Source of the DNA: Glaciozyma antarctica PI12
Taxonomy: Eukaryota; Basidiomycota; Microbotryomycetes; Kriegeriales; Camptobasidiaceae
Assembly: GCA_002917775.1 (NCBI GenBank)
Contig: KZ627148.1
Span: forward strand, 1 to 64,000
Direction: 5' to 3'
Length of the DNA stretch: 64,000 bases
Shown: piece after piece, positions 27,311 through 57,067 of the stretch
Layout of the letters: every line of letters begins with the position of its first letter
Position numbering within the stretch: position 1 is the first letter of the stretch
Notes under the pieces: generated by a model
Told to the model about the DNA's origin: nothing
What the model saw: only the letters and a program-made list of their open reading frames with translations
The model's database searches: none
Translations under genes and position numbers: made by a program

Positions 27311-29117
27311 ATGGCATCCTTCTATCTGTTCCCAGCAATAGGCTCAACTTGGCCCGCGCGGGACTCGAACGCGCTCGAGTTCAAGCTCACTGTCACTCGC
27401 GCAGCGTGTAAGCCCCACCTCCCCTTTTTTACGCGACCGTGCGCTTATCCCATCTCCAGATGCTCACGGATTCACCCTTTCTCACGCCATAAACCAGTCC
27501 GGCAACACCTCCCGCTGCGCCTTTGTCGATCCCCTCTCGTCGACGCGTTGTGACTTCTTCGTCCGCCTCGAGTGCGGCGGGGACTCCGACGACGTCGTTG
27601 CCGAAGCGGTCTACTCGCACAACCACAAGATTTGTTTTCAGCTAGACGAGGCGGCGCGTATCAAGGCCTGCAAGGTGGTCAGCGAGCTGGAGCGGAAGTT
27701 CGAAAAGGCGAAGGAGGCATGGGCGAAGGAGGACGAGACGAGGGAGCGGCGGGAGGGGGAGAAGCGAGAGAAGGAGTCGAAGCGGCTTCGAGGAGCGAGA
27801 TTTGTGCAGCAGACGTCGCTGGGAGGACAGCAAGGCGGTCAATCTTCAGACGTCGCGTCTCCATCTTCGAGTTCCGAGAAGGCGAAGCGCCTGCAGGTTG
27901 TCATTCTCACCGACCCAGTGCGTAAAATCTTCTACAACCTCTAGAGACCCGCTAACGCTGGCTCACAGACTCCCATCCCCCGACTCAACGACTCGTTCGC
28001 CTCGCTCCTCGACTTTCGCTCCGCCGTCAAATCGAGCGCCATCCAGCACGGCTTCAGTGCCGTAGTCTCGGGGAGTGGTACGAAGACGACGTACAAGCTC
28101 GTCTGCTCGAAGCAGGGGTCGGAAGCCGGCGCGTACCAGAAGAAGCCGTCGTGCAGGTGGTTCGTGATTGCGAAGGAGGACGCCGATGGACGCTGGGTCG
28201 TCGAGGCGGGGGATTGGGTGCACACGACGCACCTTCCAACGGGGTACAAGGAGCAGAAGGAGCTGCGCGAGAGGTCTTTCGCGCCAACTCCGAGTCCCAG
28301 CCGGCGTCAACTCGTCGTCGTCGCTGCGAAGGCCGAAGAGCGCGTTGGTTCGACTCCGTCTCTCGCCAAAGCAAGTCTCTCACCTCCTCGGGTATTGGTC
28401 CCCGCTAACCTCGCTCACTAATCACAGCCTCCCATCTCTCGCCACTCCTTCCTCGCGACCTTTGAAGCCCCCAACTTGGAGCTGTTCACAGCCCACGCAA
28501 CCTCCCTCGCCCACCAGCACAGCTTCTCCCTCGCCATCCTCCGACCCAGCAGCTTCGGCAACTACCGCGGCGAGCTCCATTGCTCCGTCGCCAGCTGCAC
28601 TTGACTAGTCGTAGTAGAGCGCCAGAACGGCGCCTGGATCGCGACGGGCGGGGAGGACTCGCATTCCTCGCACCCCTTCAAGCGCCTCACGAGCTCGGCC
28701 ACCTCCTCCTCGAGCAAGCAAGCCCGCACTACCTCAGCCCTCGCGCGCGGTCCCTCCTCCACCCCCTCCGTCGCCCCCTCCTGCGACTCGGATTCCGACG
28801 TCGAGATCCTCGAGCCCAAGCCCTGCCTCCCCTCCTCGACGACACTGTTCAACCTCCGCGCGCTCGAAAGGAACCTCGGCGAGCCTGCCCTGAACCTTTA
28901 CGCGCAGTTTCTTCTCGACGTAGGTCTTCACTCGGCTGTGGCGTTCGAAGCGATCATCGGCGGTTGGTTCGAGGGGTCGTTGGAGAATTTGGCGCAAGTG
29001 GATGGGCAGGGGAGGGAATGGATGCCGCTGGGGTTGAGGATGGTGTTGAATAAGGTCTTGTTGAAGAAAGCAGCGGAGCAGGGGTGGGAGGTGGAGCGAG
29101 CTGGCGAGGGAGCGTAG
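27311..29117 (+). CDS. FAR1-like triple zinc-finger/SAM-like protein, interrupted by an in-frame TGA (copy A1)
   Basis: Probable DNA-binding protein of a lineage-specific family. Exons: 27311-27407, 27460-27917, 27969-28370 and 28428 onward. Each of three repeats has the spacing C-x4-15-C-x21-23-H-x1-2-H: RCAFVDPLSSTRC with HNH; a second with SCRWFVIA and HTTH; a third with HCSVASCT and HSSH. This resembles the FAR1/WRKY-GCM1/FLYWCH zinc-finger superfamily. The third finger is cut by TGA at 28602-28604, where the paralog has Trp; the next codon is CTA. The same frame stays open to TAG 29115-29117 and encodes the rest of the finger, an acidic motif (DSDVEILEPKP) and a SAM-like helical domain. 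Intron 3 is GC-AG (GCAAGT donor at 28371). Exon 1 is 97 nt, as in copy A2. Confidence 0.75.
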
Positions 29118-29206
29118 TTAGTGGAGCGAGGTTGGAAGCAATGCCGTTCGTTCGTTCCCAGTCCCGGTCTCAAGTCCTCGCCGAATCGAGGACGTCGTCT
29201 ATTCCA

Positions 29207-30968
29207 CTAATCTGAATCGCTCATATCCCCGAGCTTGGTCTCCTCCTCCTCGTCCTCCGAAAGTCCCTCCACCCGCTCGTACAGCGACACATCGACCGCC
29301 TCGGCCCCGTCCTCGTCGAACGCTGCATCGGAGGCAAAGAGCGCCGAATCCTTCTCAAACAGTTGTCGTCCTGCACGTAGTCGTTTGTAAGCTTCAGAAG
29401 CCGCGACGAAGAAGCGAAGAAGTTCGCACCTGAGAGCTTGGCGAGGTATCGCTTCGTCTCTTCTCGCTCTTTGGGCGGCAGTGCCTTGAGACGATCCTGC
29501 TCCTCCTGCTTTTTCTTCATCACCAGTTCGGCCTCGAACCCGACCTTCCACTCCTCAAACGACTCGAGCGTGACCTTTGTGCCAGCCGTCTGGATCGCCA
29601 CCGCCTGCGTTGCGAGTCAGTCGTCGCTTGCGCGGGGAGGAGAGAGCGGCGTACCTCTTCCTCAATTCGCGCCTTCTCATCAGCAGCCTTCTGTAACCGT
29701 GCGTAACGATCCTCGATCATGGCGGCTAACGATTCGCGAAGGTAGAGGGAGAGAGTGTACACCATTGCCTGCGCGCGGGGGTTAGCTCAGGTCCACGCTG
29801 AACAAGAACAGCGCCATACCATTCCGATCGAGTCATTCGCCTGCGACGAGGGAACACGCAAGAGTCAGCTCGCGTTCTCGCTGTGCGTGCAGCTGCCGGT
29901 TCGAAGGTGGTCCTCCCAGGCTTGAGCCTCCACGATCCTCCCGTGCGCCAACCCCCTCCTCTTCCAATCATCACTCCCTTCCTATCGCGCGACGGAAGCA
30001 CTCACAGCTCCAATGAGCCCCATCACGAGCCCCACCTCACAACCCCTCGCTCATCGTTCCTTCGAGGCATTCGATCGAGATTTCCGGTAGCTCGTCAGGG
30101 TAGGTTGGTGAATATTGAATGATGAGGGATAGGGCATCTGTTCCGCAACGCGTCAGCAAGCCCTGCGGACTGGGGAGAACGCGGGGGAGAGGCGTACGGG
30201 GGGTCGTTGGGGTGAACAATCTCGGGATGGCGAGCTTGTCTTCTGAAAAAACTGCAAGGGGGGGGGGGGGGGGGGGGTCAGGTTAGCACAAGTACAGCGA
30301 GAACTGAGGCTACGAAGCGCCAGCAGACGACCGTCTCCGGAGCTGTTGGAGGGGGACAGCAGGCTTCACCTCGTCAACGAAAACGAGAGGGAACGCCGCT
30401 CCACCTAGACCGTAGCTCCCTCCATCTCCTTCCGCACCTTCTCCAGCACTCCTGCACTCTTCCTTCCCCTCGCAGAGCTCGTGACGCCTCAGCACTCCCA
30501 TATCCACCCTGAGCTCAGCACGGCTTCCTCCACCACCCTCTACCCCCACCACGAGCTTAAACTGGTGCAATGGAAGCTTAGCGGACAGTCTACGAGCGTC
30601 GCAGGCACGACAGCTGCTGGCTCGCCGGAGCAGAAGCAGCAGCACGTCTCCTCGCCAGCCAGCTCTCCACAACCTCCTCCGGTCACCCCTCCATCTGCCT
30701 CTACTCGTGCCGGCCAAATTGCTCCCTCCAAAGCTCTCCGCCACGCCGAGCGTGCCCTGCTGCTGTCCAATCCGCCCCTGCAGCTCCTCCCTCCCACCTT
30801 GCCTCCTCGACCCCGCCAAAGATCACTAGCCGCGCGCCTCACCTGTCAGCTCATCTGGAAAGATACTCTCGAGCACCTCGAGCTCTGAACGGCGCTCCTC
30901 GGCGTAATCTATGATGAGCTGGTGAGCTCGCGAGCTCAAAACGCGGCGAGAAGCGACGCACCGGTCAT
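29207..30968 (-). CDS. RWD-domain protein, RWDD1/GIR2 type
   Basis: Homolog of RWDD1/yeast Gir2, which bind DRG-family GTPases and Gcn1 and act in translation control. The start is reconstructed as a 7-nt coding exon (30962-30968, ATG ACC G) joined to 30843-30908, giving MTDYAEERRSELEVLESIFP DELT, the exact RWD opening. After a 590-bp intron holding a 20-base homopolymer come VFSEDKLAIPRL, then ALSLIIQYSPTYPDELPEIS (the YPDE-P core). Next are ANDSIGM, AMVYTLSLYLRESLAAMIED, a Lys/Glu helix (ELVMKKKQEEQDRLKALPPK) and an acidic tail (EGLSEDEEEETKLGDMSDSD). One junction near 30000-30060 does not resolve cleanly. The family assignment is firm; that exon edge is not. Confidence 0.85.
30258..30277. 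repeat. G20 homopolymer (C20 on the coding strand) at an intron 3' end
   Basis: Twenty consecutive G on the + strand. On the minus strand this is C20 followed by TTGCAG, which is the acceptor of the long RWDD1/GIR2 intron. The tract therefore forms its polypyrimidine stretch. Length may be inaccurate because of sequencing slippage. Confidence 0.9.
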
Positions 30969-31751
30969 TCGGGCTTGTAGCGAGCTTGGGGAGGTGCCGA
31001 GGGTCTGGCGAGGTGCTGGAGGTCCGGCGAGAGTCGTAGGTGGCTGCTGGGAGAGTCGTCGCTGCTGCTGGGAGGTTGGCGGGAGGGAGAACAGCCGACC
31101 CATCTCTCCGTCAGCTCTTGTCCTCTCGCCATCACCTTCAACAGCTCCGATCTCATTCGACGCGCTCTACACCAGCTATGGCTTCTCAAGGATCACTCGC
31201 TTAACGGCTCCCACGCGCTCCACAAAGCTTCCTTTTGTCACGAACGCGGGGACCTCTCCTTCGACTCGAAGAGGAAGGAGCAGGGTCCCCCACGCACTAA
31301 GCCACGCTGCGCTACGCCAAGGAAGGAGTGGAACTGGCAGAGACTTTGTCTCGACGGAGGGGGCTGAGCAGACTGCTGGCGAGTGCGAGCGCTGCCTGAG
31401 GCTGCTCCCTATGATCTATCGGCTCTCGTCTGAACCTTTGAAGGCTCGAGGGAGTCAGTCGGCTCGTCCGGCCGAGTCTAAACTCTGTCGAGCCCCCTCC
31501 TCTGCAGGGACCTCCTCCTCAAGGCCGGCGCACGCGTGCTGGAACACGCCGGATAGGTCCCCGTCCCGCTTCCCCGTTCTCTCCTGTCTCCCCCCTCGCC
31601 CCTCGACGAGCTCTCCTGGTCGAAACAACTTGGCGTGCCTCAGCCTGGCCAGCGCATCCTCTTTTCGCGCGACCTTACGACTCGACGCCTTCGTTGCCGT
31701 CCTCCCCGCCTTCCGCAGCGACACCTCCAAAAAAGCCTCCTCGACGACACA
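30969..31751. promoter_or_regulatory. Divergent intergenic region (RWDD1 / membrane protein)
   Basis: About 780 bp between two divergent starts. Open frames are compositional and lack motifs. No repeat or RNA gene is evident. Confidence 0.45.
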
Positions 31752-33408
31752 ATGAACAGCACCAACAACCCCTTCCCGGCGCTCCGACTCCAGCTGCAAA
31801 GCGAGTTCTACCTCACGCCCGGCTCGAGCTTCAAGCGCCAACTTCTCGCCCTCACGATCCTTTTCGGCGTGTCGACCGCGTGTCTCGTGCTCTCTCTCGC
31901 ACTGAGATGGTCCTACGGATCGTTCTGGACGGTGCGGCTGCAGCATACGGCGGCGGGGACGTGGATCGCGGTACATCCTATGATCGGGTGGATCTTCTTC
32001 TCGACGATATTCTTGGGCTGTGAGTTCGTCTTTTGTCATGGCACATCGATGGGACAGGGTGCAGCTGATACGCACACGCAGTGGCACAGGTGTACCTCTG
32101 GCAAACAAAGCTGTACGGCGAAGCAGGCTCAGATCTGCGCAACTCAATCTTGTGGCGCAGCACCGTTTGGTGAGTTCCCCGACTCTCCTTCCAGCCTCGT
32201 GCTAACCCTTCCGTACAGGCTAGCTCTATGGTTAGCCGCCTGGATGACCGTATGCTCCTCTCTCCACCTCCCGAGCTCCCACTAAAACTCTCTCGCAGGC
32301 CTGGGCGACTGCACTCGCTCCCATCCTCTCTCACCAACCCTCCCCCACTAACCGCCTCGACATAGCCCACTACCCCTGGGCCGCCAACACCTTCTTCCTG
32401 CTCATCCCCTGCATCGTCTTCGGAATCATCATCTGGCTCTCCCTCGCGGCGAGCGATCACTACAATACGGCATTCGCTCTGTACCGGACGGTGGACGCGA
32501 CGCTCGTCCAGGCGAGTGCTGCTTGGGATGCAGGAATCGTAGTAGATACGAGCGAGATGCCTGCGGTTCAGCTTGAGCTGGAGAGGAACGCGGCGTTGAT
32601 CATCGAGAGCTGGAGATGGGTGTGGGTGGCGTGGAGCGCGTTCGTCGCGTTGGAGCTGGGGGTGCGTTCTTTCTCTCGCTTCAAGGGACAATATATAACT
32701 GACGAGCGCTAGCAGGTCTTCTTCTTCGCTTGCGTCGCACACTTTCGCTCTCTCAGCATATCGATGCAGACCCTCCGCGCGAGGACATCAACAGGATCCT
32801 CCTACCAACGCCAGATGCGTTCGCTCATCTGGGGATACCGCTCCCTAGTCTTCACAATCGTCATCATCTTCGTACGCTCTCCTCCCCTCCTCTCACCTCA
32901 AAACCTAACCCCGCCACCAGGTCATCGCAGCCGCCTACCTCGCCACCACCAGTCCGTCCTTCCTCCTGCCTTCTTTTTCTCTAATAACCCCCCGTGCAGT
33001 AACCCTCGCCATCAAAACCGCCGAGATCGCTCATCCGGGTCTCCTCGCCGAAATCGCCGCCATCGGCGCTCTGTACGTCCCTTTCTCCCTCCCTCCTCTC
33101 TCCCGCTAACCTCGAATTCGCACCACAGATACGTCTATGCCCTCTTCGGTGGCTTAAGCAACTTTGTCGTCCTCCTCCGCTCGTTCGTCCGCCCCCCAAA
33201 AGCGAGTGCGAGCAGTATCCCCCTCTCGAACGTCGGGCTGTCGAAGCCGCCGGAGTTTGGAACGGGGAGTAGGACGCAGCTGACGGTGATGAGGAGTGTG
33301 GAAGTGAGGAGTGAGCATTCGCAGTTTGAGATTGATTTGGAGCACGAGGGCGAGGGACGGGGAGAGGGGAATGGGAAGGCGGAGGGACCGTGGGTGTATG
33401 CGCGGTGA
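31752..33408 (+). CDS. Multi-span membrane protein of unknown family (full-length paralog)
   Basis: About eight exons (31752-32019, 32082-32169, 32219-32249, 32299-32661, 32716-32871, 32921 onward) give roughly 470 residues. It starts MNSTNNPFPALRLQLQSEFY. Hydrophobic segments follow: LLALTILFGVSTACLVLSLA, MIGWIFFSTIFLGLAQVYLW, LALWLAAWMTAWATALAPIL, NTFFLLIPCIVFGIIIWLSL, WVWVAWSAFVALELGVFFFA, SLVFTIVIIFVIAAAYLA and YVYALFGGLSNFVVLLRSFV. That is about seven spans, followed by a hydrophilic tail (SEHSQFEIDLEHEGEG) ending WVYAR. Seven spans with a cytosolic tail recall a receptor-like topology, but no GPCR signature is visible and I claim none. The gene at 25977 is a shortened relative. Confidence 0.75.
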
Positions 33409-33733
33409 GGGGGTTGTGGAATGTTTGCTGTACTGTGAAATGTTCTATTAGGGGGGCTAAGGGATGGTCGAGAGCGAGCGAGCTATCGGGCTTCTGCAAG
33501 GTCGCGAAGTCGGTTTGTTCAAGCGATCCTTGCTCCGCCTGGACTCCTCTTTCGCTCCCGTCCTACTCTTCAGCGAAACAGGAGCGACGCTCTAGGTTCT
33601 GCAGATAAGAGCTACGAAAATGGCCTTCAAACGCCGTCGACTACGCTCAAAAACAACGGCCTCGCAAACGAAGCTCGGTAGCGAGAACCCCGCACTCGAA
33701 CAATAACCGTCTTCACTAGCAGTGTCTATGAGC
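33409..33733. other. Convergent intergenic region
   Basis: 325 bp between the ends of the membrane-protein gene (+) and the hydrolase-like gene (-). Nothing recognisable. Confidence 0.45.
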
Positions 33734-37156: not shown

Positions 37157-38957
37157 ATGCAATCCCCTTCCCTCGTGCCTCCGACGACGCTCTCAGCCCC
37201 TACGCCCGTCCCCGTCCTCTCGCGACCCGTCTCGCGTCCCCCTACTCTCCCTCCCATCATCCCGACTACTCGCGCCTCGACGTTCTCCGTCGACATCCCC
37301 GTCTCCTCGTCCACCCGTATACCCAAGATGGACACGTTCGTCCCTGCTTCGCCTACGGGATCGAGTATCAGCGATGGAGATCCGCCGGGGTACGTCCCGC
37401 CGAGCGGAGGCGTCAAGAAGAGTGGTAGCGTCGAGTCGTCGAGCCGGAAGAGGGCGTTTGAGGAGCTCGAGGAGATTACGTTTAGCAACCCGAAGAGCTT
37501 TACGAGTATGGCGTTTGCGATCGCCGAGTGCGTCCTCCCTTTCTCTCTCTCGCTCGCGCGCGTACTGATGATTGAGGAACGCAGGTCTCGAGGAATACAG
37601 CTCATTGTCATCGACGACCGCACGCACAAAGTTACTTCAGCCTGTTCGTCCCCTCCCCATCCTCACTCGTTCGCACTAACCCTCTCTGCGCGCGACAGAC
37701 ATGCACGTCTCCTGCGCCTTCCGCCGCTCGGGCTGCCCTCTCATCCTCAAGCTCACGAAAGCGAAAGAAGGTGGCTGGGTCATGAAATCCTCGAAAGCGA
37801 CCGACGTCGATCCGAAACAACGTTCCTTCTACCGCTGTCGCCACCCCGCCGGATCCATCGCCGATTCTCCCTCCGTCGGCACGACCTCTCACCCCGGCGC
37901 ATCGGGGTCGAAGCCCAAGGCAGCAAAGAAAGCGCCAGGGGGGAAGAAGGACAAGATTGCGCCAAAGGACGTCGTAGAGAAGCTCGTACCGAGTCGCGAG
38001 AGTCGACCTTCGGCGAAAGCGAGGGATAACGAGGAGCTTTCTCTCCTCTACCTCGGCGGCGGCGGGGCCGAACGAGCTCTCGCGCCGCCTTTCGAGCGGA
38101 GTCTGAGTTTGGCGAACCAGATCGCTCCGGTGCTGCAGGGCGAGGGACCGGGGTGGATGCCGAGGGGGTACGTCAAGCCCGTCGTCGAGGTGCCGAAGGA
38201 GCCTAAGGAGGGTGCATTGAGGGAGTGGACGACGTTCCTATCGCTCTTGGATCCCGATTTGATCCCTCTGGCGTCGGTGCTGTCGGGCGCAAAGTACGAC
38301 GTGAGCTTGGAGAGCTTCTTCAAGGAGGATGATGATATGCGCGCGGCGTTTATTGAGGCGCTGGAGGAGGTGGGGGGGTGGCCGAGGTTGAAATTGGGGA
38401 GGAAGGTGAGGAGTAGGGGGGTGGAGGTGTGGAGGGGGATGGTGGGGGAGGGATTGGCGCGAGGGACGACGACGATCGCGACGAGCGAGGGGATGAGGGA
38501 GGCTGCGAAGCCGGTTCCAGTCTCGCACCAGCCGACGGTCTCTCACCCTCCCACCGCCACTCCAACGACCTTCACCCACTCTCACCTCTCCAACTCATTC
38601 GTCCCCACCTCTCTTCACCACCCTCTCATCACCCCCAGCCTCCCCGCCAGTCCCTCCCTCCCCTCCTCCGGCCCCTCCCACTCCCCTCCCCTCCTCAAGC
38701 CCGAACCCATCGACGAACCCATGCCCTCCTCCCACCCTCCTTCCTCAATGGACGAATCCAGCGACAACTCCTCCGACGACACGGGCGCCGCCGACGCAGG
38801 ACTCGTCGTAACGCGCGTGGTGGAATCGATCATGGCGCCTGTGCCGGCGCAGGGGTTTTGGGGACAGGAAAAGGGGAGCTTGTGGGGTGGTGGCCCGGGA
38901 GGCAACTCGGGGAAGATGAGGAGGAGGGAGAGGAGCGTTGAGGAGGAGGAGGAGTAG
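37157..38957 (+). CDS. FAR1-like single zinc-finger/SAM-like protein (copy A3)
   Basis: Three exons (37157-37527, 37585-37643, 37699-38957) give about 562 residues. A Pro/Ser/Thr-rich N-terminus (residues 1-100) leads into one finger: FSNPKSFTSMAFAIAE, then VSCAFRRSGCPLILKLTKAK, EGGWVMKSS and YRCRH. Its first Cys pair (C-x6-C) and Trp match the family, but the last pair is C-x-H rather than H-x-H. A basic linker (KPKAAKKAPGGKKDK) follows, then a helical domain (WTTFLSLLDPDLIPLASVLS; MRAAFIEALEEVGGWPRLKL) that aligns with the C-termini of the other copies. The end is a long Ser/Pro- and acid-rich tail. It is probably nuclear. No stop interrupts it, so this is the best intact member. Function unknown. 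Confidence 0.72.
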
Positions 38958-40591: not shown

Positions 40592-42379
40592 ATGGTCGCC
40601 CTCAATCCCGTCCCTGCTCTCGGTTCCTCCTGGCCAGAGTGGGACGGCAGCTGGCTAACCTTCAAGCTCGCCGTCTGCCGCGCCGCCCGTGCGTTATCTC
40701 CCCCTTCCCCGCGGACGCCGCTGACATCCACCCTCTCCCCACAGGCGACCGCTCCTTCGCTCCCCACTTCGAGACGCTCGTCCAACAGTATTCTATCGCA
40801 GCGCGCTGCGGCGCCGACTCGTTCTGCCCTTGGAAGATCACGCTGGAGTACGCTCATGAACGAAAGGCCGACCTCGTTACCTCCGCCACTTTCTCGCACT
40901 CGCACCCCCTCAAACTCGACAGTGCCGCACAGCAGAAACTCGACCGCCAGATTGCAATTCTTGAGACGAACCTTGCGGGGTTGCAGGAGCGTTTGCAGGT
41001 CAAGCTGAAGCAGGCGGTTGAGGCGCAGCAAGTCGGCGGTCGTCCAGCTCGAGCGGTTCGCGCACCTCCCGCTCCCGCTGCTGCGCCCAAGGCAAAAGAA
41101 GTTAGCTTTGGACCTATCGAGATTCCCCTCCTGGACAAGCCGGTACGTACCTCTCTCCCATCAAGCTTCGCCACCGAGCTGACTCCCTCCGTCGCAGACG
41201 CTGATCCCCCAGCCCGGCGACACCTTCCCCTCGCTCCTCTCCTTCAGTTCGGCTCTCCGCACGAGCGCCGTCCAGCGAAATTTCAGCGCCTGGAGCTCCG
41301 GCGGCGCCATCACCGCCTCTACGACTTCGCACAAGGTTATTTGCAGCAGGAACGTCGCGGGCGTTGCGCCGAGGTGCGGGCGGTACGTTCAGGCGAGGAA
41401 GAGGGGGCGAGGGAAATGGGAGGTCGAGCAGGGGCAGTGGGAGCATGAGCATGAGGTACTTTCGGAGGAGGAGTGGGAGAAGAGCCTGCGGACTCCGGGG
41501 GAGAAGGGGACGCCGTCTTCTGGGAGGAGACGCGAGGCGGCCGTTTCGCCTGAGCAGCGAGTTTGGGCTCCTCCGCCGGCGCCGAAGGCCGAGGAGGACG
41601 GCGACGGGGGTTTGACCGGTACTTCGAAGGAGAGATCGCAAGAGCAGGCGAGCTCTGCGTCGAGGCATCCTCAGGTTCAGGTGAGTTCCTCGCTCGTTCT
41701 CCAAGTGCGGAATACACTCTAAAGCGACTTTCACCAGGCTTCCGACCTCTCCACCTTCCTCTCCACCTCGTTCACCCAGACTTTCCAGTCCTTCGAAGCC
41801 CACGTCGCCACCTTCGCCCGCCCACTCGGTTTCTCCATCCGCTCCCTCCCCACGAACTGCGGCGACTTCAAACAACTCCGCTGCGTTGTTTCAGGCTGCA
41901 ACTGGACCATCGACGTTTCGAAGCAGAACGGTCTTTGGCGCGCGACGGACGTCTCCCCCTCCCACGTGCACGCCCTCAAACGCCTTACCGACGAACCTTC
42001 TTCCCCACCCAAGCGCGTCCGATTCGGCACTACGCCTTTGCCGGAATCTTCGCCCGACGCGCTCGACGCACCGGATTCCGACATCCAGATCCTCGAGTCC
42101 CCTCCGAAAGACGAGGACAAGCCGTTCTCAGCTTCGACGCTCCGGTGATATCTCGAGCAGCTAGTCGGGACGAACGTTCTCGCTCCTTACGCGCCGGACT
42201 TGCTCGAAGCGGGGTTCACGTCGCCCGAGGCAGTGAGGACGATCGCGGAGGTGTGCTTGGAGGATTTCGTGAAGGAGTTGGCGGGGCTTAAGGATGGGGA
42301 GGAGAGGGATAAGATTCCGGTGGGGATGAGACTGGTGTTGAAGGCGAGGTTGGGGCAGAAGTTGGGTGCGAAGGAGTGA
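40592..42379 (+). CDS. FAR1-like triple zinc-finger/SAM-like protein, with an in-frame TGA before the SAM-like part (copy A2)
   Basis: Closest relative of A1, with exons 40592-40688, 40745-41142, 41198-41680 and 41738 onward. Exon 1 is 97 nt in both copies and the three introns share phases 1, 0 and 0. It starts MVALNPVPALGSSWPEWDGS. The three fingers are RCGADSFCPWKITLEY with HSH, ICSRNVAGVAPRCGRYVQA with HEH, and RCVVSGCNWTIDVSKQNG with HVH. A helical segment (KLDRQIAILETNLAGLQERL) separates the first two. The frame stops at TGA 42146-42148 (462 residues) but reopens at once as YLEQLVGTNVLAPYAPDLLE, then GFTSPEAVRTIAEVCLED, and ends at TGA 42377-42379. That stretch aligns with the A1 SAM-like domain. 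Either the domain is lost, or the TGA is bypassed. Confidence 0.75.
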
Positions 42380-42569
42380 GGAGTGAGGTAGCGAGGTCCT
42401 TCGCCGAGCTCGCAATGTGATACGATTGATCTCTCAGACGGAAGAACGTTCGGAACAGCACAAACGTATTCCTTTTGCGGCACCTCGCTGCCCACTCCCC
42501 ACTCTCCGCACCTCCTCAAAAGTGAACAAACCCCGTCGACAAAAACAACAAACATCCTCCTGCCCCGTT

Positions 42570-44097
42570 TCAAGCTTCCACCTCCCACGCACTCTCCCCA
42601 AGCTTCTCCAACGCCCTCAGCAACAGCTTCTTCTGCAGTTCCGGCAGCTCCTCCCTCTCCGGCTCCTCCAGCGCCGCCGCCATCCTCGCCTCGCCCAGCG
42701 AGAAGAAGGCGACCACGCTTCCGCGTCCAACGAGACCGTTCCTGTGGAAGAGCGGAGCGTACCGCTCTAGAGAAGGGCTGAGAGCGGCGAGGATGTGGCC
42801 GAGCTGAAGGACGGAGAGATCGCCGAAGGAGCGAGGGGTCGATAGGGTGGACGTTGCGCGAATGCGAGAAGTGGAGGGTCCCGCGTGGAGAGCGGTGGAA
42901 GTGGTGTAGCTTGTAGGAGGTCGTGTTGAGGATAGGCGAGAGTGATTTGGAGGTGGAGGGAGACTGGATGAGGGTGAGGTGCGATCTTGCGAAGCTTCGT
43001 TGCTTGATTCGCGCTGGCGCTTCTCGGGGACGGCAGGAGACTCTTGTGCTTCTTGTGCTTCTTGCGCGACGAAAGCTTCGAGGGAGATCCGGCGGGTTCA
43101 ACCTTCGCCTGCGCACCTGCAGACCTCAAATCAGCTCTCGCCCGCAATCCGGAGTCCGTCGCGCCTTGCATACCTTTCGCGAACTTCCTCTTCTTCCTCC
43201 CTCCCTTCCACACCAGATCCCACTTCCTCCTCTCCTTCAAAAACCTCCTCAACGCGCAGTACCTCCCCAGCTCCTCGCCTACTCGTTCACATCCCGGCCT
43301 CCCCCTCCAAACCTCCTCCGTCACTCTCCTCGCCACATTCAACGCCGAAACCGTGGTATCGTACACGCGCTCCGATCCAGAGATGAGTTGGTGAACGTAG
43401 ATGGCGACGATGGGGCCGATGATGGGGAAGGGAGGGACGGAGTTTGAGGCGCAGAACGTCTCGTAGCCACGCAGGCGGTTGCGAGCGATCTTATGAGACC
43501 CTTCGCTCAACGCACCGTGATACGCCGTGATGATCGCTTCAGAAGCTTCTTGCAACGAATCTGCGGAAGCCTCATCAGAAACTGCGTCCAGCGACGGCCG
43601 TTTGAGAACGAAAGACTTACGAGTTCCTCGGAGGCGTTGCGCCGCGAAGGCTTCCTCCTTGCGACTGATGAGCTTCTTCATCGCCCTTGACGCAGTTAGG
43701 GGCGAGGAGGAAGAGCTGAGAAAGGGAGGAGGGACCGAGACGTCGACCGCCGAGTCCTCGTCGCTGGAGTCCGAACAGGCGGGGAGAGCTTCGTCGGCTG
43801 AGCTGTCCGATTCCTCTTCTGGAGCTGCGTCGCTGAGGTCGGAAGAATCGTTCGAGCAGTTCTGGTTGCTGGGAGGGAGACGGGGGATCCCGTCCCGCAA
43901 GGAGTCCGACTCCTCGGTCCCTCGCTCCTTCGAATGGCTCTGGTTCCCCGCCAATCGAATCAGGATCACGCCTGCCAGATACCTTCACACCAACTCACCT
44001 CGTCGAAATCCACCCTACGCCAGCTTCCCGCACGACCCTCCCCGATTCTCTCCCCCAGCAGCTGCTCCTTCGCAGTCACTCGCCCCACGTCGTCCAT
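42570..44097 (-). CDS. Core-binding-like/SAM-like protein without zinc finger (copy B1)
   Basis: Four exons by splice reading. The ATG at 44097 gives MDDVGRVTAKEQLLGERIGE, then SHSKERGTEESDSLRDG, acidic Ser-rich blocks and SRAMKKLISRKEEAF. A helical domain follows (SLQEASEAIITAYHGALSEG; RLRGYETFCASNSVPPFPII; GPIVAIYVHQLISGSERVYD; TTVSALNVARRVTEEVWRG). Its pattern recalls the SAM-like core-binding domain of tyrosine recombinases, though no catalytic domain is present. A basic stretch (KGGRKKRKFAK) and, after another intron, a C-terminal helical domain (LSVLQLGHILAALSPSLERY; ARMAAALEEPEREELPELQK) complete it. It matches copy B2 along its length but has no N-terminal zinc finger. Function unknown; a nuclear DNA-binding role is inferred. 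Confidence 0.65.
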
Positions 44098-44724
44098 GGG
44101 CTCAACGCTGCACTCCACTCCGACTGAGCGCTCTTAGCGCTCATTTGAATCTCCTTCGTCCCGCGCTAGCACCGCCGGGGGTTCCATCGCTTGGCGAGCT
44201 GTTGTCCGAGAGCTGGTAGAGATTGAGCGCTACTGGCGCGGAGGGTCAGCGCCGTAGTATAGGACAGTGTGATGGAATTAATCACAAGCTATGGCAAGCT
44301 GAATGGCCGAGGATCGAGCTGAGAAGGTGGCGGAGGAAGAGGAAACTGAGGGCGAGGACCCCGCGCTGGAGTGCCCCCTTGGCTCCCGCTTCTCTACCTT
44401 CGCACAACGCGAGAAATCAAGAACGGTGCTGATTTTGGGTCGCACGCTAGGATAGAGCAGGAGAATACGCTCTGCGCCCCCTCCCCCCCCCCCCCCCCAC
44501 GGGTCTCTCGCAGCTCGCTTCCATTTCCTCCGCTCCCTCCAACCCCGCAAAACCGTTCGCAAGCAGCTTCCTCTGAGAATAAAGGCTCGAGACTGAATGG
44601 AAACGAAGCAGGAGAACAAACGACCAGGAACGACCGGGTTGCGCGTCAAACCTCTCCCCCGAGTCTCGAGATGAACCGCCAACTTCCTTCTACGTTCCAG
44701 TCGATCAGCACTTGACCAACATGT
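44098..44724. other. Intergenic region with a C16 tract
   Basis: About 630 bp between two minus-strand genes, containing the B1 promoter. It holds a run of 16 C at 44483-44498. No gene supported. Confidence 0.45.
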
Positions 44725-47208: not shown

Positions 47209-50200
47209 CTAATAGCTCAATATCACGGCAGCTCCCACCACGAACGCGCCGACGAACCCAAAGCTCATCGCCCTCAGTGCTCCCCCAGTCGCAAGCGTCG
47301 CGATCGGGGCTGAAGCATCACGAGGCACTGCTCCGAGGGTGGCGGAAGCGGGCTGACGAAGCATGGTTGAGAACTTGGCCTGCTCGAGAGAGAATGAGCG
47401 AGCGTCGCGGGATGGAGGGAAGAAGAACGTACGTCTGGGAGCTGAGCTTCGGCGGTCGCTCGAGGAAGGGAGCCGGCGGTGACGGTGACGGTGACGGTGA
47501 TACCAGCGCCGCAAGTCTGTAACGAAACGAAGTCAGCTTTGAGACTACACAATGAAGGAGGTAGACAAACGGGATCCTCGGGGGCTGAACCAGGGTTCGA
47601 TCCAGTCGGCTGCGCGGGGAAACCGCCGTTGCTACTGGTGGAGGACTGTGACAGAAGACATGGTCAGCTTGCGCGGGCGAGTGAGAGGCGAGGAACGCAC
47701 CGAAGAGCTGGAATGTATGAGTGTCTGATCCTCCAGGCGGCGTTGCTCGAACTTCCAGGAGAGTTGCTGGAGGAGCTTCCAGCCGCGTTGCTGGAGGAAC
47801 TCCCAGGAGCGTTGCTGGAGGAAGTAGACTGCGAGACCAAAAAAAAAAAAAGTCAGCTCCGCACTCGGTTCTCGCGAGCGAGAAATCTCACCGAAGACGT
47901 CGAGGGCAAAGTAGCAGTGCCGGTAGGAGGCGCCGAGCTGTTAGAAGTGGAGGAGGTCTACAAAAGCGAGCTGTTAGCTTCGCACGGGAGAAGTCCAAGG
48001 ACCGAGCTCACTATCGTGGACGAAGTCGGAGGACCGACGGTCGGGGGCGAACTCGTGTCCGTGGGAGAAGTGGCGGAGTTCGTGCCAGTAGGTGAGTCGG
48101 TGGCAGTAGGTGAGTTGGTGGCAGTAGGTGAGTCGGTTCCTGTAGGTGAGTCGGTTCCTGTAGGGGCGCTGGTGCCAGTAGGGGAGCTCGTGGCAGTGGG
48201 AGAGTTCGTGCCGGTGGAGGAAGTCGTGTCGCTGGGTATATCGGTAGAGGACTACAATGGCAAGGGGGATCAGCTGTGGACGTGCACGCAGAATCATTGA
48301 AGAAGCTTACCGTGGAGCTCGTAGTAATAGGGGGCAAGGCAGTCGAAGTTGAAGGCCCGTCAGTGCTGGTCGTGACAGTAGAAACCGTCTACAAGCTTGT
48401 TAACAACGCTCAATGACTTCGGCAAAGGAGGCAGCTTACCGAAATGGTCGCGGTCGGCGCCGGAGGGAACGAATCGGTGATGAGCGTGGGCGCAGTCGTC
48501 GAAGAGGAGGTGGTGTCGGTGGGAGCAGTCTGTGAAAGTGGGAGTGTTAGTCTTGAACGCAGCATTCGACGAAGGATGGCACTTACAGAGGTTGCTGCTG
48601 AAGTCGAGGAGATCGTGTTCGTGTTTGTGGGCGCGTTAGTCGTCGAAGCGGTTGTCGTAAGGGTGTTCGTAGGGTTCTGATAGGGAGGAAGGTCAGCAGC
48701 GCACCAGAAATCGTCAGGAAGCCAGCTCACCGAGGTTGTCGTCGGCAAGGAAGTCGAAGTCGGAGGCCCGACGCAGATACCATCGGCTCCGCGCGTGAAT
48801 CCAGTCTCACACTCGCACCCACACCCGTCTTGGCCGCCGCAAATTGTGACCTCGTTGAAGGGGGCACTAAATGAAGCAGTGTCGTCAGCTAGAAAATCTC
48901 GAGCGAGAGCGAAAGGGCGTACAGTCGGGCAGGCTCGCGGGTCCTGAGTGCCGTCGGGGAGGACGTTGACACAGAGGCAAACTCTGAGGAGGCCAGGGAC
49001 GAGGATAGCAGCTTGAACGCCGATAACAGCTCCGGGACCGCAGCCTGCGAAGGGAAAGCGAGGGTCAGCGGGCGTACTGCGATTGCTGTTTGAACTTGAC
49101 GTACCGGCAGGGCCTAAAAAGGGGAATAATGAGTAATCTGCGCGATTTAGAAACAGGAAACAGACGTACCCAGGAGAGTGGATCCGAGATCGACGGTGAT
49201 GAGATCAGGCCCGCCGACGGTGATGCCTCCAATGGCGTCCAAGATGGGAGCCAAAGGTGCGACAATGGGAATGATAGTTCCGTTCAGCAGAGGTAGAACG
49301 ATGGCGTCGGTGATGGGGTTGACGACCGTCTCGAGGATGGGCGAGACGACCTCGTCAAGGATGGGAGAGACGACGCCGTCCAGGATGGGGTTGAGGATTC
49401 CGCCGAGGATGGGGATTTCGGTGATGATGGTAGATTGGCCGGGTGTAGCAGTCGAGCTAGGGGTCGGAAGGAGGCCGCCGAGGGAGGGAAGGCCGAGCTG
49501 AGGTTGCAGAGAGGAATGTCAGTTGCGCCTACAACGTTCGCGCGGAAGTGGAGCTCACCGAAGGGGTTGCAGACGGCGTGCAAACGCCATCAGCGCCGCG
49601 AGCGAAGCCAGCCTTGCAGTCACAGCCGCAGCCATCTTGTCCGCCGCAGGTTGCGACCTCGTTGACGGGGCACTGATTGCGACGAAGCGGTCAGACCTGA
49701 ATCTCGAGCTCGAAAGCGAGAGCGAGAGCGCGTACCTGAGGGCAGGCTCGGGGGTCTTGTGAACCGTCGGTAAGAACGTCGACGCAGAGGCAGACCTTGA
49801 GGAGGCCAGGAACGAGAACACCAGCCTGTACTCCGATAACAGCTCCATTTCCGCAGCCTGCGAAGGGGAGTTAGCTGCGAAAGCGACGAGACGAAACGAT
49901 CGAGGGCTCACCTTCGGGACCTGAGGAGGGAGCGAAAGCGAGTCAGTTGCTGCCGAGGATGGAGAAGGAAGAATGAACGCACCGAGGATTGTGGAAGTGA
50001 GGTCGACGGTGATGAGGTCAGGACCGCCAATCTCGACTCCGGCGACGGCGTCCAAGATGGGAGCCAGAGGCGCGACGATAGGGATAACAGTTCCGTTCAA
50101 GATCGGTCGCACGATGGCGTCCGTTACGGGAACGACGACGGTTTCGAGGACAGGAGAGCCGACTTCATCGACGAGGGGCGAGACGACCTCGTCCAAGATA

Positions 50201-51262
50201 GGGTTGAGAAGGTCGCCGAGGAGAGGAATGTCGGTGATGATGGAGGATCCACCGTGGGCGGGGGTGGAGCTGGGTTTCGGGAGGAGGTTTTCGAGGAGGG
50301 GAAGACCGAGCTGCGAGGTGCGGAACCGTAAGCGGGTGCCAGTCGAAACCTTCGCAGAGAAGTGAACTCACCGAAGGGCTTGCGGGCGATGATGCCGAAG
50401 GAGTTGCAGTTGACGAGGACGAAGGGCTTGCGAGCGATGAGGAGGAAGTGGCAGACGCCGCGCAGACGCCGTTAGATCCACGAACGAAGCCGGTCTTGCA
50501 GTCGCAGCCACAGCCGTCCTGACCGCCGCAGATCGCAATCTCGTTGACGGGGCACTGAGCAAGACGAAGCTGTTAGACATGAATCTGGAGCTCAAAAGCG
50601 AGACGGCGTACCTGAGGACAAGCTCGCGGGTCTTGCGAACCGTCGGAAAGAACGTCGACGCAAAGGCAGACCTTGAGAAGGCCAGGAACGAGAATACCAG
50701 CCTGTACTCCGATAACAGCGCCGTTTCCGCAGCCTGCATAGGATAAGCACGAGTTAGCTGCGGAAGCGACAAAAAGAAAAGAACGAGGGCACACCTTCAG
50801 GACCTGAGGAGGGAGCGAAAATGATTCAGTATGCTGCCAGAATGGAGAAGGAGAAATGAACGCACCGAGGATGGTGGAAGTGAGGTCGACGGTGATGAGG
50901 TCAGGACCGCCAATCTCGACTCCGGCGACGGCGTCCAAGATGGGAGCCAAAGGCGCGACGATAGGAATGTCGACGCCGCTCAGGATCGGTCGCACGATGG
51001 CATCGGTGACGGGAACGACGACGGTCTCAAGGACAGGAGAGACGACTTCGTCGACTAGGGGCGAGACGACGTCGGCCAAGATGGGGTTGAGGAGTCCTCC
51101 GAGGAGGGGAATGTCGGTGATGATGGAGGTTTGACTGTGGACGGAAGTTGAGCTGGGCCTCGGGACGAGGTTGTCGAGGAGGGGAAGGCCAAGTTGAGCG
51201 GTCGCCGAGCTCGACATGAGGACTGCGAGGGCGACGAAGGTGGGGAGACTGAACCGAGTCAT
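47209..51262 (-). CDS. GPI-anchored cell-surface glycoprotein with three tandem Cys-rich modules
   Basis: Secreted wall protein. Signal peptide MTRFSLPTFVALAVLMSSSA at 51262. Three tandem copies of a module of about 230 residues follow (about 51200-50460, 50311-49590, 49499-48780). Each has LGLPLL, a run of short hydrophobic repeats (ILDEVVSPLVDEVGSPVLET; APILDAVAGVEIGGPDLITV), a segment GCGNGAVIGVQAGILVPGLL, a Cys cluster (KVCLCVDVLSDGSQDPRACP) and an EGF-like end (CGGQDGCGCDCKTGFVRG). Intron positions recur with the module. A long Ser/Thr/Pro-rich stalk (47600-48720), likely heavily O-glycosylated, precedes a C-terminal hydrophobic tail (AMSFGFVGAFVVGAAVILSY) typical of a GPI signal. The family resembles proteins often loosely named proteophosphoglycans in red yeasts. 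Ligand unknown. Confidence 0.85.
48082..48225. repeat. 18-bp minisatellite coding a six-residue Ser/Thr/Pro repeat
   Basis: About eight imperfect 18-bp units in the stalk of the GPI glycoprotein encode variants of DSPTGT/NSPTAT on the minus strand. The unit length keeps the frame, so copy number can change without breaking the protein. Confidence 0.85.
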
Positions 51263-53335
51263 GGCGTGTGGTGTCGAAGGCTGTCGAGGGCAAGATGGGT
51301 GGTCGAGGCTGAGGCGAAGCCGAATGAGAGTGAGGAGAGAAGAGAAGAGCACAACGAAAGCGAATCGTTGCCGGAGCAGAGCGCGCAGCAGTCCCGCATT
51401 CAGGCACACTCGCCTACCAAGACGGGACAGGCAGCAGCTCATGCCAGGAGTTACTGCCGCGGTAAACAGGCGTAATGCATCCCAAGCGAGCGAATCGCCG
51501 AACGCCGTGAGAGTGATCAGCTAGGATCAGCTGCGAGCGTGCGCACGCAAACCCGAGGATGATCCCATCGGCGACCTTATTTCTCCCGCAGGGAGGATTC
51601 GACCAGCGAGAGAGGGAGCGGAAGGCGATGTCGCCCCGTTCGATCGTTAATTGCGTGCGCGAAGCGTCAGGGCGGAACGGATCTGCCTGGACCCAAGACG
51701 GACGCCACACTACGCCACCGTGGCGAGCGTGGGCGTAATCAACCTCGAGATGGACGAGCGAAAGAAGGGAGCGCCCGCGCCACGAAAACGAAGTCAGTTC
51801 GGGCTCGATCGTCCAGATCCGGAGGATCTTCCTCCCCTCTTTAATAACGTTGATGATTGAAACATTCAATTGAGCAAGGCCAATCCCGATGCAGGAATCT
51901 CGCTTCCTCGTCGCTTGCTGGCGAGGGCCCGAAGGGCGGCGTACTGCAGCCGCCGAGCAAAGAGGCGGGAAGCACGGAGCAGCCGTGAAGCTGAGCGCGC
52001 GAAGGCGACGCTGGGCGCCGAAGACGCCGCTTCGACGTCGAAGTCGATGCCCGAGTTGATCTGAGCGGGGGGGTGGCTTCTTAATGTCCTTCTCTCAGAT
52101 CCTCAGGAGGAGCCGGACGAGACTAGCGAAATGGCGATGTCGCGTTCGATGTGGATCATCAGAAGTTGTGCGTAGCTCCGCAGAAGAATACGCTGTTCGT
52201 GAATGGCGAGACGGCGACAGGGTAACCCGCAAGGAGCAGAGCGGGTAGAGCGGAGTGAAGCTGCTCCCCGAGGCCTGAGGCCCAACGACGGAAGAATCAG
52301 CTATCCCCTCTGCACAATTGCACGGCAAGCGAAGGCGCACCTCTTTAATGTAAACGCTCTAGCTCTGACATCCCTGCCACGGGGAGAGCGACACAGGCGC
52401 TGCTCCCAGAGGTGAGGTACCTCCTCCCCTCCACCTGCTCTTCCCGCTTCCCTCCACAGCTCCACTCGACGCAGTTGTTCTCCCCAGCAACCCCAGCACA
52501 CCCGATCCACCTCGAAAGCCCTCCCCGCTAGCCCTCGCGCGTGCGCTCCGACCACAGCCGCTCGCCCCCGCCCACTCTCCCTCAGCACAAGCCGTCTCCC
52601 TCCGCCCAGTCCTGCTCCAGCGGGTGCGAGTACCGCTGTACGCTTTTGCATAATAGCCAAAGTTCGGTCTCACGCGAGGTCCTAGCTAGCGTCCGGCGGG
52701 GAGGAAGTCGGGAGATGTCGAAGGCGCCGTGTCGCGGAGAAGAGGAGGAGGAGAAGCGGATTCGCTGGGGGAGCTGGAGGCGGGGTGGCTGGAGGAAGGA
52801 AGCTGTACAGAGCGCCGTATCAGCTTGGTCGCGTGCTGGTTGCTGTGCTGTCGCGGAAGGAGGAAGAGCAGAGCTCGTCGAGCTCGCTGCTTGGACCGTC
52901 GCCTCCCTTCCTCCAATCCACCACCTCGACTACTCTCCGCGCCAGCTCGAACAGCTTCTACTAAGCGCCGGAGTCTGCGTCGGTCTTCCCGAGCTCAGCT
53001 GCCTGCTCGCGAGGTAGGCGAATCGCCTCCTGGCCCGCTCTCGTCCAGCTCCATCGCTCCCTTCAGCTTCGCGCGACCTCAAGCTAGCGAACGCAGGACA
53101 CCGTGTACGAAGATACTCAGGACGAAAAGGTGCTTATTCCTGAACGTCCTGCGCGGAGAGGAGAGCTAACAGCGTGCTCCCTAGCCTGCACTCGGCTCGC
53201 CTCCGGTCCACTCTTCCCCCGACGCCCCTCCGCCTCACAACAGGAAGTCGTCGAGCGGTACTCCAGCTGCTTCTGTGCGCTTTCTGGCTCTCCTTCTTCG
53301 CCTAGCTTTGAGCCTGACCTGAACCCTTCCTGCAG
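51263..53335. other. 2.1-kb gene-sparse divergent region
   Basis: Longest stretch in the window without a supported gene. The left part carries the promoter of the GPI glycoprotein (-). The right part must carry the promoter and the missing first exon of copy B2 (+), since that frame has a stop at 53315 and needs an upstream exon ending at the acceptor TGCAG 53331-53335. The motif GATCAGCT occurs twice in close tandem near 51516-51533. No transposon or RNA gene recognised. Confidence 0.5.
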
Positions 53336-55041
53336 CAGGCCACCTTCCGCACGCGTCTCTTCAAATACAACCACTCCTTCCCCACCGCTCCCGACTTCTT
53401 TAACGCTTGCCGCGAATCCCTCATCGAGACCTACGGATTCACGATGTGGACGCAGATGAACACCAAAACGAAGATCTCCTCGACCTGTTCGCAGCGCCTC
53501 TGCAAAGGGTCGCCATGCAAGTTCCGCGTCGATGCGGTGTATGTGAGCGGGAAGTGGAAGGTGGCGGGGTGGGAAAGCTGCTGGGAGCACAACCATGCGG
53601 GATTGGAGGGGAAGTTGGGCGATGCGGAGGGTGCGGAGGAGGAGGAGGAGGGGAGCGAGAGCGAGAGTGATTCGGAGTCGGGTAAGCTGGCTGGGTCCAC
53701 TCCGGTCGCTGCTGCTCTCGCTAACAAACTCTTAATCTCGCAGAGCTCAGCTCCGCCGAAAGCAGTTCTGATTCCGACGTCGAGGGCGCACCGGAAGCCG
53801 ACCTTTCGGACGAAGCGACCGATTCAGAAGCCTCCGTCGATATCTCAACCCCACCTCCTCGCCTCAGCAGTTATTCCACGCCCACGACCTCCTCCAAAGC
53901 GATGAAGAAGCTCGTCGCACAGAGCGAGAGCCCCTTGGCGATCAGCGAGCGCGCGGAGATCGTTCGTCCATTCGCTGCTCTTCGTCTACTACGCTGAACA
54001 AATCTCGCAGCCTCTCTCCAAGCCGAGTGCGAACGCCTAATCAAGATCCAGCAAGCAGCCATGATCACCGCTTCGCGTTACAGCGCTATCTCGCGCATGC
54101 TCAACTACGAGGCCTTCTGCTCCTCGCACCGCATCCCCATGTTCCCCATCGTCGGATCGATCGTCGCGCTTTGGACGTACCACCAGGCGTCCCAGTCGGA
54201 GCGCTTTTACAACAGCGAGGTGTCTAAGCTCAACATGGCGCGTAAGACGACCGAGGGAGTCTGGAGGGGCAAGAGGGATTACGGTGAGGCGGCGATGGAG
54301 GTCGTAAGCTGCAGGGCTTTATGGGAGTTTTTGACGGAGAGGAGGGAGTGGAATAAGACGGTTTGGAAGAGGGAGAAGTCTTTCAGCAAGAAGGACAAGG
54401 GGAAGGGGAAGGCGGAGGCGAAGGAGGTTGCTCAGCGAAAGAACGAAGGTTAGTCGGCGGTATCGGAGTCTCCTCACGTTCGTCGACTGACATGCGATTC
54501 TACAGCACCTTCCCACTCTACGAACGCGAAAACCTCTCGGCCGAGCCACGCCTCCTACTCGAAGGTCAACCACAGGCTCTTCGACTCCCCAGGCCCGTCG
54601 AAGCGAGCTCGCGAGCCGAGTCCCCAAGGTCGCCTTCCCCCGCCTCAGCGCCCTCCCAAGCTATCCCGCCATTCTACCATCGCCGAATCCTTCCTGCCAC
54701 CACACCAATCGGCCACTCCCAGCTCTCGTCCGCGCGTTCTCCCTCCCTCCGCCAGGCCCGCCCCTCGTCCCAACCCTCCCTCCTCCGGCCCTCTCACCGT
54801 CCTCCAACTCGGCCATCTCCTAGCCGCTCTCAGCCCCTCCCTCAAGCGCTTCGCTCCTTTTTTCCACCGGAGCGGCCTCGCGCAACGCGAGAGCGTGATC
54901 GCCTTCCTCTTGCTCAGCGAAGCGAGGATGGCGGCGGTGCTCGAGGAGCCGGTGATGGCGGAGCTGCCGGTGTTGCAGAGGAAGCTGTCTCTCAAGGCTA
55001 TGGCGAGGCTTAGGGCGAATGGGTGGGCGGAGAGGTCGTGA
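53336..55041 (+). CDS. FAR1-like zinc-finger/core-binding-like/SAM-like protein (copy B2)
   Basis: The 5' exon is unresolved; the coding part starts after the acceptor at 53335. Exon 53336-53681 holds one finger: APDFFNACRESLIETYGFTM, then TCSQRLCKGSPCKFRVDAVY, GKWKVAGW and HNH (C-x9-C-x23-H-x-H, the FAR1 pattern). The next exon (from 53744) is acidic and Ser-rich with SSKAMKKLVAQSES, shared with B1. Then come SLQAECERLIKIQQAAMITA, MLNYEAFCSSHRIPMFPIVG, SIVALWTYHQASQSERFY and SKLNMARKTTEGVWRGK, the core-binding-like domain. After one more intron the C-terminus reads LTVLQLGHLLAALSPSLKRF, then GLAQRESVIAFLLLSEARMA, and ends ANGWAERS. It combines the finger of the A copies with the core of B1. 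No catalytic residues of a recombinase are visible. Confidence 0.7.
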
Positions 55042-55466
55042 GGAGGGTGCGAAGGAGATTGCGGGGAGGAGTCGTTGTTGTTTCGTTTTTCTCGCTTTTT
55101 CAATGTTGCTCGCGATGGGAGCGGAACGCTGCAGCTGTAACATCGCTCTTTTCTGTTCTGCGTTCTGCGTCCGCTTTCGCCACTTCGAGACCGAAGAGAA
55201 GAGCTCCAGGCGGTCGCGTCGACGCCAACGCGACGGGAGCCAAACTTCTCCCCTTGTTCTCCTCCTCCCTCTCGCTCTCCGACAGAGAGGTGGCCTCCTA
55301 CACGCCGCCGGAACCTTAAGGACTTACACACGCCAGCTCCCCCTGCCCCCCCCCCCTTCCCCCCATCTCACGGACTCCCTCCAACAGCCGCGTTCTCGAC
55401 TTTTTTGCATCACTCCTTCGTCCGATCCATCTCTCCCCCGCCAACACACGCGTCGAATCACTTCGT
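55042..55466. other. Intergenic region between copies B2 and B3
   Basis: About 425 bp with no supported gene. It contains a C-rich run at about 55346-55366. Confidence 0.4.
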
Positions 55467-57067
55467 ATGGTCGGGCACTGCAAGCTGGAGGACGGAGCGT
55501 CGGCGGCGCCGGGGATTTGGGTGCAGCAGGCGGTGCGGGGAGCTGAACCCGCGCGAGGTGGACAGCTGGAGCAGAGGGCGTACGAGTTTCCGGGGCACGC
55601 AGGGGGGAATGGGATCTTGCAGCTGTTGCAGCCTGAGGAAGAGGTGAGCAGGATTTCAGTCCAGAGCTGGAGCGGAGAGTGAGGTGAGCTGACGAAGACG
55701 GGGAGCAGGCGAAGATGAAGCTCTCGATTGCGGGCGCTGTCAAGCAGGAAGAACAGGAGCTGTCTGCAGGCTTTACCTCTTATCATTCAAGGCGAGAAGG
55801 CTCTTCAACTGGAGACGGCGGCAGGGGAGCTTCTCTCGTGCGTCCACACCTCGTCTCGCTCTTCCAGAGCCAACTCGGCGCATTCAAAGTCCTACCTATG
55901 CCTCCCTAAACCCAACGACACCTTCCGCACCCCGCTCGACTTCTTCTGCGCCTGCCGTCTCGGCCTCCTGTCGACGTTGGGACTTCCGACCTCGAAGAAT
56001 GCCGAGACGCCCAATCGCCCCCGAGCTACGTGCTCCTCGCAGCGCACTCCCACCAGACCTTCTTGCTCGTTCAGGATAGTCGCGAGCTCTTCTTCAGGCG
56101 AACTACAAGCCCCGTCCCAGTGGCTCCTCGACACTATGCGTTCCGGCCTCAACCCTTCGACCTCAGGCGTCCTCCGCAGGCGACTCGCTCAATTCGCCTC
56201 GTACTGCGCCTCCGTTGAACTCCCTCCCCGTCTTCCCTATCACCGACTCCATCGTCGCGCTTTACCTCTACACCGTCACCGCGACAAAGGATCGAAACTA
56301 CGACAGCGACATCTCGTCGCTTAATGAGCTTAGAAAAGCGTGTGAGGAGCTGTGGGAGGGCGAGGACGCGTTAGGGGAGCTTAGGGATAACGAGGCGATC
56401 AGGGAGTTTACGGTGGAGGCGCGAGTGAGGGCGGGGAAGATGGCGAGAGGGACTCGGGAGCAAGCGAAAGGTGAGTTTGTGATGGGTCGGGCTGAGAAGC
56501 GGAACCAACATTGATTTCGCCAGGCACGGCGCGGGGTATTGAGGATGCACCAAAGAAGCACAAGCACAAGCAGCGCGACCACATTCCCTCGCCAAAGAAG
56601 AAGCGCAAGCTCGACTCTTTCGCCCTCGCCGACCCTCTCCAAACCTGCCTTCTCCTTTCCACTTTCGACTCCGCAAGCCAGCCCCCCACCTCCACCCACT
56701 TCTCGCCCACTCTTTCCAGCCCTCCCCACTCCCCTCCCTTACCTCGCTACGCAGCTCCGCGCCCTCTCAACCCCCTCTGCAACTCCCGAGCCCTCTTAAA
56801 CACCTTCTCCTCCCTCCACCCTCTCCCTCTCCCTCTCCGACCTCTCCTCAGTCCTCGCCTCTCTTAGCCCCTCCCTCGTCTCTCTCGCGCCGATCTTGCA
56901 CCGGAACGCTCTGAACGATCACACGAGGCTTGCGGGGCTGTCCTCCTTCCTGAGGAGGAGCTGAGAGGGATCTTTGAGGAGCTCGAGTTGCCGAGTTTGT
57001 TGCGGAGGATACTGGCCAAGAAGATGGTGGAGATGCGGGGGAAGCTTGAGCAGGATGAAGAGATGTA
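55467..57067 (+). pseudogene. Degenerate or poorly resolved family member (copy B3)
   Basis: Homology to B1/B2 is clear in pieces: TFRTPLDFFCACRLGLLSTL with a CSSQRTPTRPSCSFRI Cys pair (no following H-x-H), RRRLAQFASYC, then LNSLPVFPITDSIVALYLYT, DISSLNELRKACEELWEGED, KKHKHKQRDHIPSPKKKRKL and a C-terminal LASLSPSLVSLAPILHRNAL. These pieces lie in more than one frame and I found no splice pattern joining all of them, so the copy looks broken. An exon at 55467 (MVGHCKLEDGASAAPGIWVQ) spliced to AKMKLSIAGAVKQEEQEL could be its 5' end or part of a separate small gene. The zinc finger lacks its His pair. Confidence 0.5.

Follow-up and report, generated by a model that had tools for sequence, protein, structure and literature searches.

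What kind of gene family carries FAR1-like zinc fingers at several neighbouring loci of the fungus Glaciozyma antarctica PI12, and from what did it arise? The question is raised by the first 64 kb of contig KZ627148.1 (C3), hereafter the window, in a genome of 20.0 Mb in 18 contigs. An initial annotation had described six loci within 30 kb as a clustered family with shared modules, perhaps derived from a DNA transposon. This observation was partly confirmed, being sound for five of the six loci, and its interpretation was partly supported. The five loci (A1, A2, B1, B2, and B3; Table 1) point to a fast-evolving and partly broken family whose members join FAR1/AFT-type fingers to a helical tail and may function in gene control. 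As the window opens with a telomere repeat, the cluster was placed at a chromosome end, and we lean toward reading it as a family of DNA-binding proteins under subtelomeric birth-and-death evolution, locally expanding and decaying at this one end.

The relationships among the loci were apparent from an all-against-all comparison of open frames in the window, which paired A1 with A2 through their fingers and tail and matched B1 to B2 and B3 through the core, tail, or finger. Finger, core, and tail profiles built from the window alone found further copies within this genome: at an expectation value (E) of <=0.01, they matched 11 tail, eight finger, and two core open frames outside the window, and neither reversed nor shuffled frames gave any match. 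Because members contribute to their own profile, the search was repeated with loci removed. When both B1 and B2 were left out, their tails were recovered at E of 5e-13 and 1.5e-14, respectively, and the B1 finger was recovered at 1.8e-5 without B1 and B3. Finger 2 was recovered upon removal of the five A fingers (7.8e-6 in A1 and 4.3e-5 in A2), and weak values were obtained for A1 finger 1 (0.54), A2 finger 1 (13), and A2 finger 3 (0.46) when all A fingers were removed. The A1 and A2 tails were likewise weak with both loci removed (0.069 and 0.013), the A2 tail reaching 1.8e-4 with A1 retained in the profile. The comparisons show homology among the canonical fingers, the class B cores, and most of the tails, and the family rests on the canonical fingers, the B-type tails, and the copies outside the window.

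The clustering initially described stood, and the cluster was larger than the 30 kb claimed. Iterated profiles run over approximately 194 kb yielded, at E<=0.01, 26 finger rows (24 on C3 and two on contig C4) and 22 tail rows (21 on C3 and one on C4), most of which had themselves contributed to the profile; two of the tail rows overlap, some rows are half-domains, and one finger row and one tail row belong to the sixth locus, gene C. By our own grouping, which excludes gene C, these correspond to 17 C3 loci lying from 27 to 175 kb, of which five are in the window and 12 beyond it, and to one locus on C4. The frames searched came from the window, C3 from 64 to 159.5 kb, and four small stretches chosen because genome searches matched there; on C3 the sequence read extended to 159.5 kb and then from 171 to 178 kb at most, and elsewhere in the genome only six-frame searches, each with a single protein or family, were run. 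Counting the place of the query itself, one tail query matched 14 places (12 on C3, one on C4, and one weak on C10 at E 0.49) and another matched six (five on C3 and one on C4), while one finger query matched five places (four on C3 and one on C4) and another six (four on C3 and two weak on C10). The C10 interval 1084001-1092000, approximately 145 kb from the contig end, includes two genes in opposite orientation with finger-like starts, which are possible distant members.

Gene C, at 37157, is a candidate only, as it paired with no other locus among the window open frames and was not recovered by profiles built without it (E of 4.0 for the tail and 23 for the finger). The claim that six loci share modules therefore held for A1, A2, B1, B2, and B3 and was unsupported for gene C. 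Similarly, the claim that intact copies end in a similar helical domain held for B1, B2, and the outside copies, the link being weak for A1 and A2 and unsupported for gene C.

The finger spacing reported earlier, C-x4-15-C, x21-23, H-x1-2-H with a conserved Trp, was borne out. A complete C-x4-15-C-x21-26-H-x1-2-H pattern was found in 19 of 25 finger pieces (a 29-residue remnant at 144.5 kb was excluded, and two pieces were spelled across a stop with X), the middle spacing was 21-23 for the seven of these in the window, and 18 of the 19 complete pieces had a Trp between the second Cys and the first His. Pfam FAR1 (PF03101) matched nine of 13 finger members at E<=1, with a best E of 1e-4. A2 (22.0 bits) and A1 (10.7 bits) scored below the curated cut-off of 28.1 bits, and no FAR1 match in the genome search passed this cut-off; annotation by the Pfam cut-off would thus miss these fingers. 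The sole PDB sequence match of the fingers was AFT2. The fold predicted for A2 finger 2 comprised a helix and four strands, and its match to the AFT2 fold was tied with unrelated chains. The Pfam matches, the AFT2 sequence match, and the ligand pattern support the earlier FAR1-like assignment and suggest that the fingers belong with the FAR1/AFT (WRKY-GCM1) zinc fingers. According to Table 3 of PMC4469406, FAR1 domains number zero in M. lychnidis-dioicae, S. roseus, and R. glutinis, and 14 and four in two rusts.

A helical tail common to B1, B2, and the outside copies was supported by the sequence comparisons, and the A1 and A2 tails may represent the same domain, to which their link is weak. 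The tail had no Pfam match and no useful PDB match, and no Pfam SAM family was listed for ten tails, the 174-kb tail, or one C10 tail, the last not counted as a member. The helical core domain, initially noted in two copies and a remnant, was present at three window loci (B1, B2, and B3) and in one C10 gene. A structure model of B1, which was of poor quality (mean predicted local distance difference test (pLDDT) score 58.7, predicted template modelling score 0.26), placed five helices within the core and beyond it (pLDDT of core blocks 47-83) and five in the tail at 268-340, where the last was the longest (pLDDT of blocks 58-85). The tail had no fold match among the seven chains compared, which were also the only ones set against the core; a SAM-like tail and a recombinase-like core are candidate readings only.

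The finger type and the core raise the alternative that the cluster is mobile-element debris of MULE type or Crypton-like in which the DNA-binding parts persist, the fingers descending from a Mutator-like transposase and the core from that of a tyrosine recombinase. Fingers of FAR1 and MuDR type occur in known MULE transposases, and A2 includes a weak match to MuDR (PF03108); several copies are broken, and there are precedents for the recruitment of recombinase DNA-binding domains, the fungal Gcr1 family being named as Crypton-derived in part of the ALOG paper (PMC3537659). However, six-frame searches of the genome at E<=0.1 gave zero matches to MULE (PF10551) and to phage-integrase (PF00589), although they read exon by exon without a positive control and the genome may be incomplete. 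In addition, the core found no relevant match in Pfam, PHROGs, NCBIfam, or PDB, the family matches were nearly confined to one chromosome end, and A1 and A2 share their intron places. These two genes are paralogues, each with three introns at matching places and three finger-like modules followed by a tail (549 codons in A1 and 540 in A2), in models built by hand at GT-AG or GC-AG splice sites without transcripts. A transposon origin was unsupported in searches of this scope, and we consider it quite improbable.

The subtelomeric birth-and-death reading draws further on signs of duplication and decay. In a tree of 12 tails, B1 grouped with B2 (99/98) within a group of five (98/99), and A1 with A2 less firmly (85/89), while six of the nine inner branches remained open. 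Inside the cluster, inverted near-copies were observed between 144.5 and 174.2 kb (99% identity across 319 bases) and between 89.4 and 107.0 kb (98% across 180 bases). The pieces holding the near-copies at 144.5 and 107.0 kb, L023 and L019, contain runs of N (3175 and 285 N, respectively). At C3 173951-174358, a 207-base tandem duplication (96%) terminates within the finger gene at 174 kb, inside its open frame. Decayed members, as first proposed, were present: a lone in-frame stop with zero residues missing was found in A1 (TGA), a copy at 93 kb (TGA), and the C4 copy (TAA), A2 has an in-frame TGA directly preceding its tail, and B3 carries several stops.

These stops, which lie inside or just before an aligned domain, would also be expected if the family were functionally dead, its copies being decaying pseudogenes of a once-useful gene. 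Against this, the copy at 174.2-175.3 kb retains a finger and tail within a single open frame, and the domains of B1 and B2 are in open frames. The ratio of nonsynonymous to synonymous substitution rates (dN/dS), by a rough Nei-Gojobori estimate, was 0.19-0.86, and so below 1, in all 11 paralogue domain pairs, and values past the A1 and A2 stops were similar to those ahead of them. Third-position guanine-cytosine content downstream of the TGA was 0.82 in both genes, versus 0.53 for a control of 228 bases taken downstream of A2, and the frame beyond both codons still looks coding-like. A wholly dead family is accordingly unlikely.

Programmed readthrough of the A1 TGA, which would yield a short product with two complete fingers and a longer one that also has the third finger and tail, would be compatible with a birth-and-death family. 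UGA CUA is described in part of PMC4207609 as sufficient for efficient readthrough in Ustilago maydis, and the A1 context TGACTAG matches it; CTA is otherwise scarce, the codon after the A1 TGA being one of only five among 1,949 codons, and the frame 3' of this TGA keeps its coding character. In contrast, the A2 TGA is followed by TATC, the A1 stop interrupts finger 3 itself, further in-frame stops are present in other copies, and TGACTAG shows no enrichment, occurring once in the window versus 4.55 expected. Since the readthrough context is found in only one of the two genes and stops are common elsewhere in the family, recent loss is the likelier reading, and readthrough is very doubtful. 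A1 nevertheless offers a stop-codon question open to direct testing.

In the birth-and-death reading, members with one to three FAR1/AFT-type fingers would be nuclear, bind zinc, and bind DNA in the manner of AFT2, and may act in gene control. The fingers would be followed by a Ser/acid-rich linker and a helical tail of 70-80 residues, which would probably associate with itself or a partner, and class B would carry an extra helical domain between finger and tail. New copies would arise by duplication and inversion inside the chromosome end and diverge rapidly, with stops breaking some of them. It is a far more speculative thought, to which we assign little likelihood, that the family is a fungal counterpart of the zinc-finger arrays with which animals track selfish DNA, in which finger genes duplicate, shuffle, and diversify as they contend with mobile or repeated sequences, the tail assembles silencing complexes, and readthrough in A1 turns the tail on or off. 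No description of this family was found in the literature searched, including sections of PMC3537659, PMC4350883, PMC2937223, PMC4207609, PMC6446971, and PMC4469406. How fungi make new DNA-binding proteins would be tractable to study in a family of this kind, with several fingers joined to a new tail and copies multiplying at a chromosome end.

Table 1. Features of the family and its surroundings in the window (positions in bases unless marked kb).
Feature	Position	Strand	Remarks
Telomere repeat	1..114	.	19 copies of CCTAAC, at window start
A1 gene model	27311..29117	+	introns 27408-27459, 27918-27968, 28371-28427 (GC-AG); 3 fingers + tail; one in-frame TGA
A1 finger 1	27390..27629	+	as matched; start in exon 1; weak in leave-out test
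A1 finger 2	27969..28232	+	profile match, leave-out recovery
A1 finger 3	28446..28688	+	divided by in-frame TGA; profile match, gene model
A1 in-frame TGA	28602..28604	+	codon 378 of 549, TGA CTAGTC; context TGACTAG
A1 tail domain	28842..29084	+	link to other tails weak
Nucleoside diphosphate kinase	35.8-36.6 kb		neighbour
Gene C	37157..38957	+	candidate member only; introns 37528-37584, 37644-37698; 563 codons, no internal stop
Cytochrome bc1 14-kD subunit, piece	39.7 kb		neighbour
A2 gene model	40592..42379	+	introns 40689-40744, 41143-41197, 41681-41737; 3 fingers + tail; one in-frame TGA
A2 finger 1 (part)	40729..40911	+	profile match; weak in leave-out test
A2 finger 2	41201..41458	+	profile match, leave-out recovery; fold predicted
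A2 finger 3	41750..41977	+	profile match; weak in leave-out test
A2 in-frame TGA	42146..42148	+	codon 463 of 540, TGA TATCTC; context TGATATC
A2 tail domain	42149..42373	+	link to other tails weak
B2	42573..44100 (upper end approx.)	-	core 43205-43558, tail 42585-42818; model partial (5' end, splicing)
TauD-type dioxygenase	44.7-46.2 kb		neighbour
B1	53318..55042	+	finger 53354-53599, core 54013-54369, tail 54793-55023; model partial (5' end, one intron)
B3 remnant	about 55467..57067	+	finger 55899-56141, core about 56103-56427, tail pieces 56827-56946 and 56916-57050; several stops
LTN1-related piece	57.2 kb		neighbour

The gene models of B1, B2, and B3 are partial only. An ATG is absent from 52951-53350, ahead of the B1 finger, and a finger was looked for in B2 without one being found. 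The neighbours listed in Table 1, which lie between or beside the copies, agree with the initial placement of the cluster among housekeeping genes. The window also includes tandem duplicated blocks at 48780-51520, with up to 85% identity across 747 bases, in which the sole frame scanned (50576-51520, minus strand) had no Pfam match at E<=0.001. Related sequences at C3 63309-63842 and 73062-73652 form an inverted pair (75-77% identity) with no finger, tail, or core profile match.

Compared with known systems, the tail may resemble SAM domains in its five predicted helices with the last one longest, and differs from them in that no Pfam SAM family was listed for the scanned tails and no fold match was seen among the seven chains. 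By analogy, class B recalls the domesticated recombinase DNA-binding domains of ALOG and the fungal Gcr1 family in the notion that a helical domain may stand alone, lacking any catalytic part, although its core has no relevant sequence match and its model is too weak for comparison. The finger motif and the weak FAR1 and MuDR profile matches are shared with FAR1, FHY3, and FRS proteins and MULE transposases, from which the family is set apart by fingers under the Pfam cut-off, a tail absent from Pfam, and a genome with no MULE match in the exon-by-exon search. Unlike the iron regulators AFT1 and AFT2 (Pfam AFT), the family has one to three fingers per protein, another tail, a local multigene cluster, and no evidence of an iron role. 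It nonetheless resembles these proteins, likewise fungal, in the second Cys, the Trp, and the H-x-H, which align with AFT2, and may do so in the helix and four strands predicted for A2 finger 2, whose AFT2 fold match was no better than that of unrelated chains.
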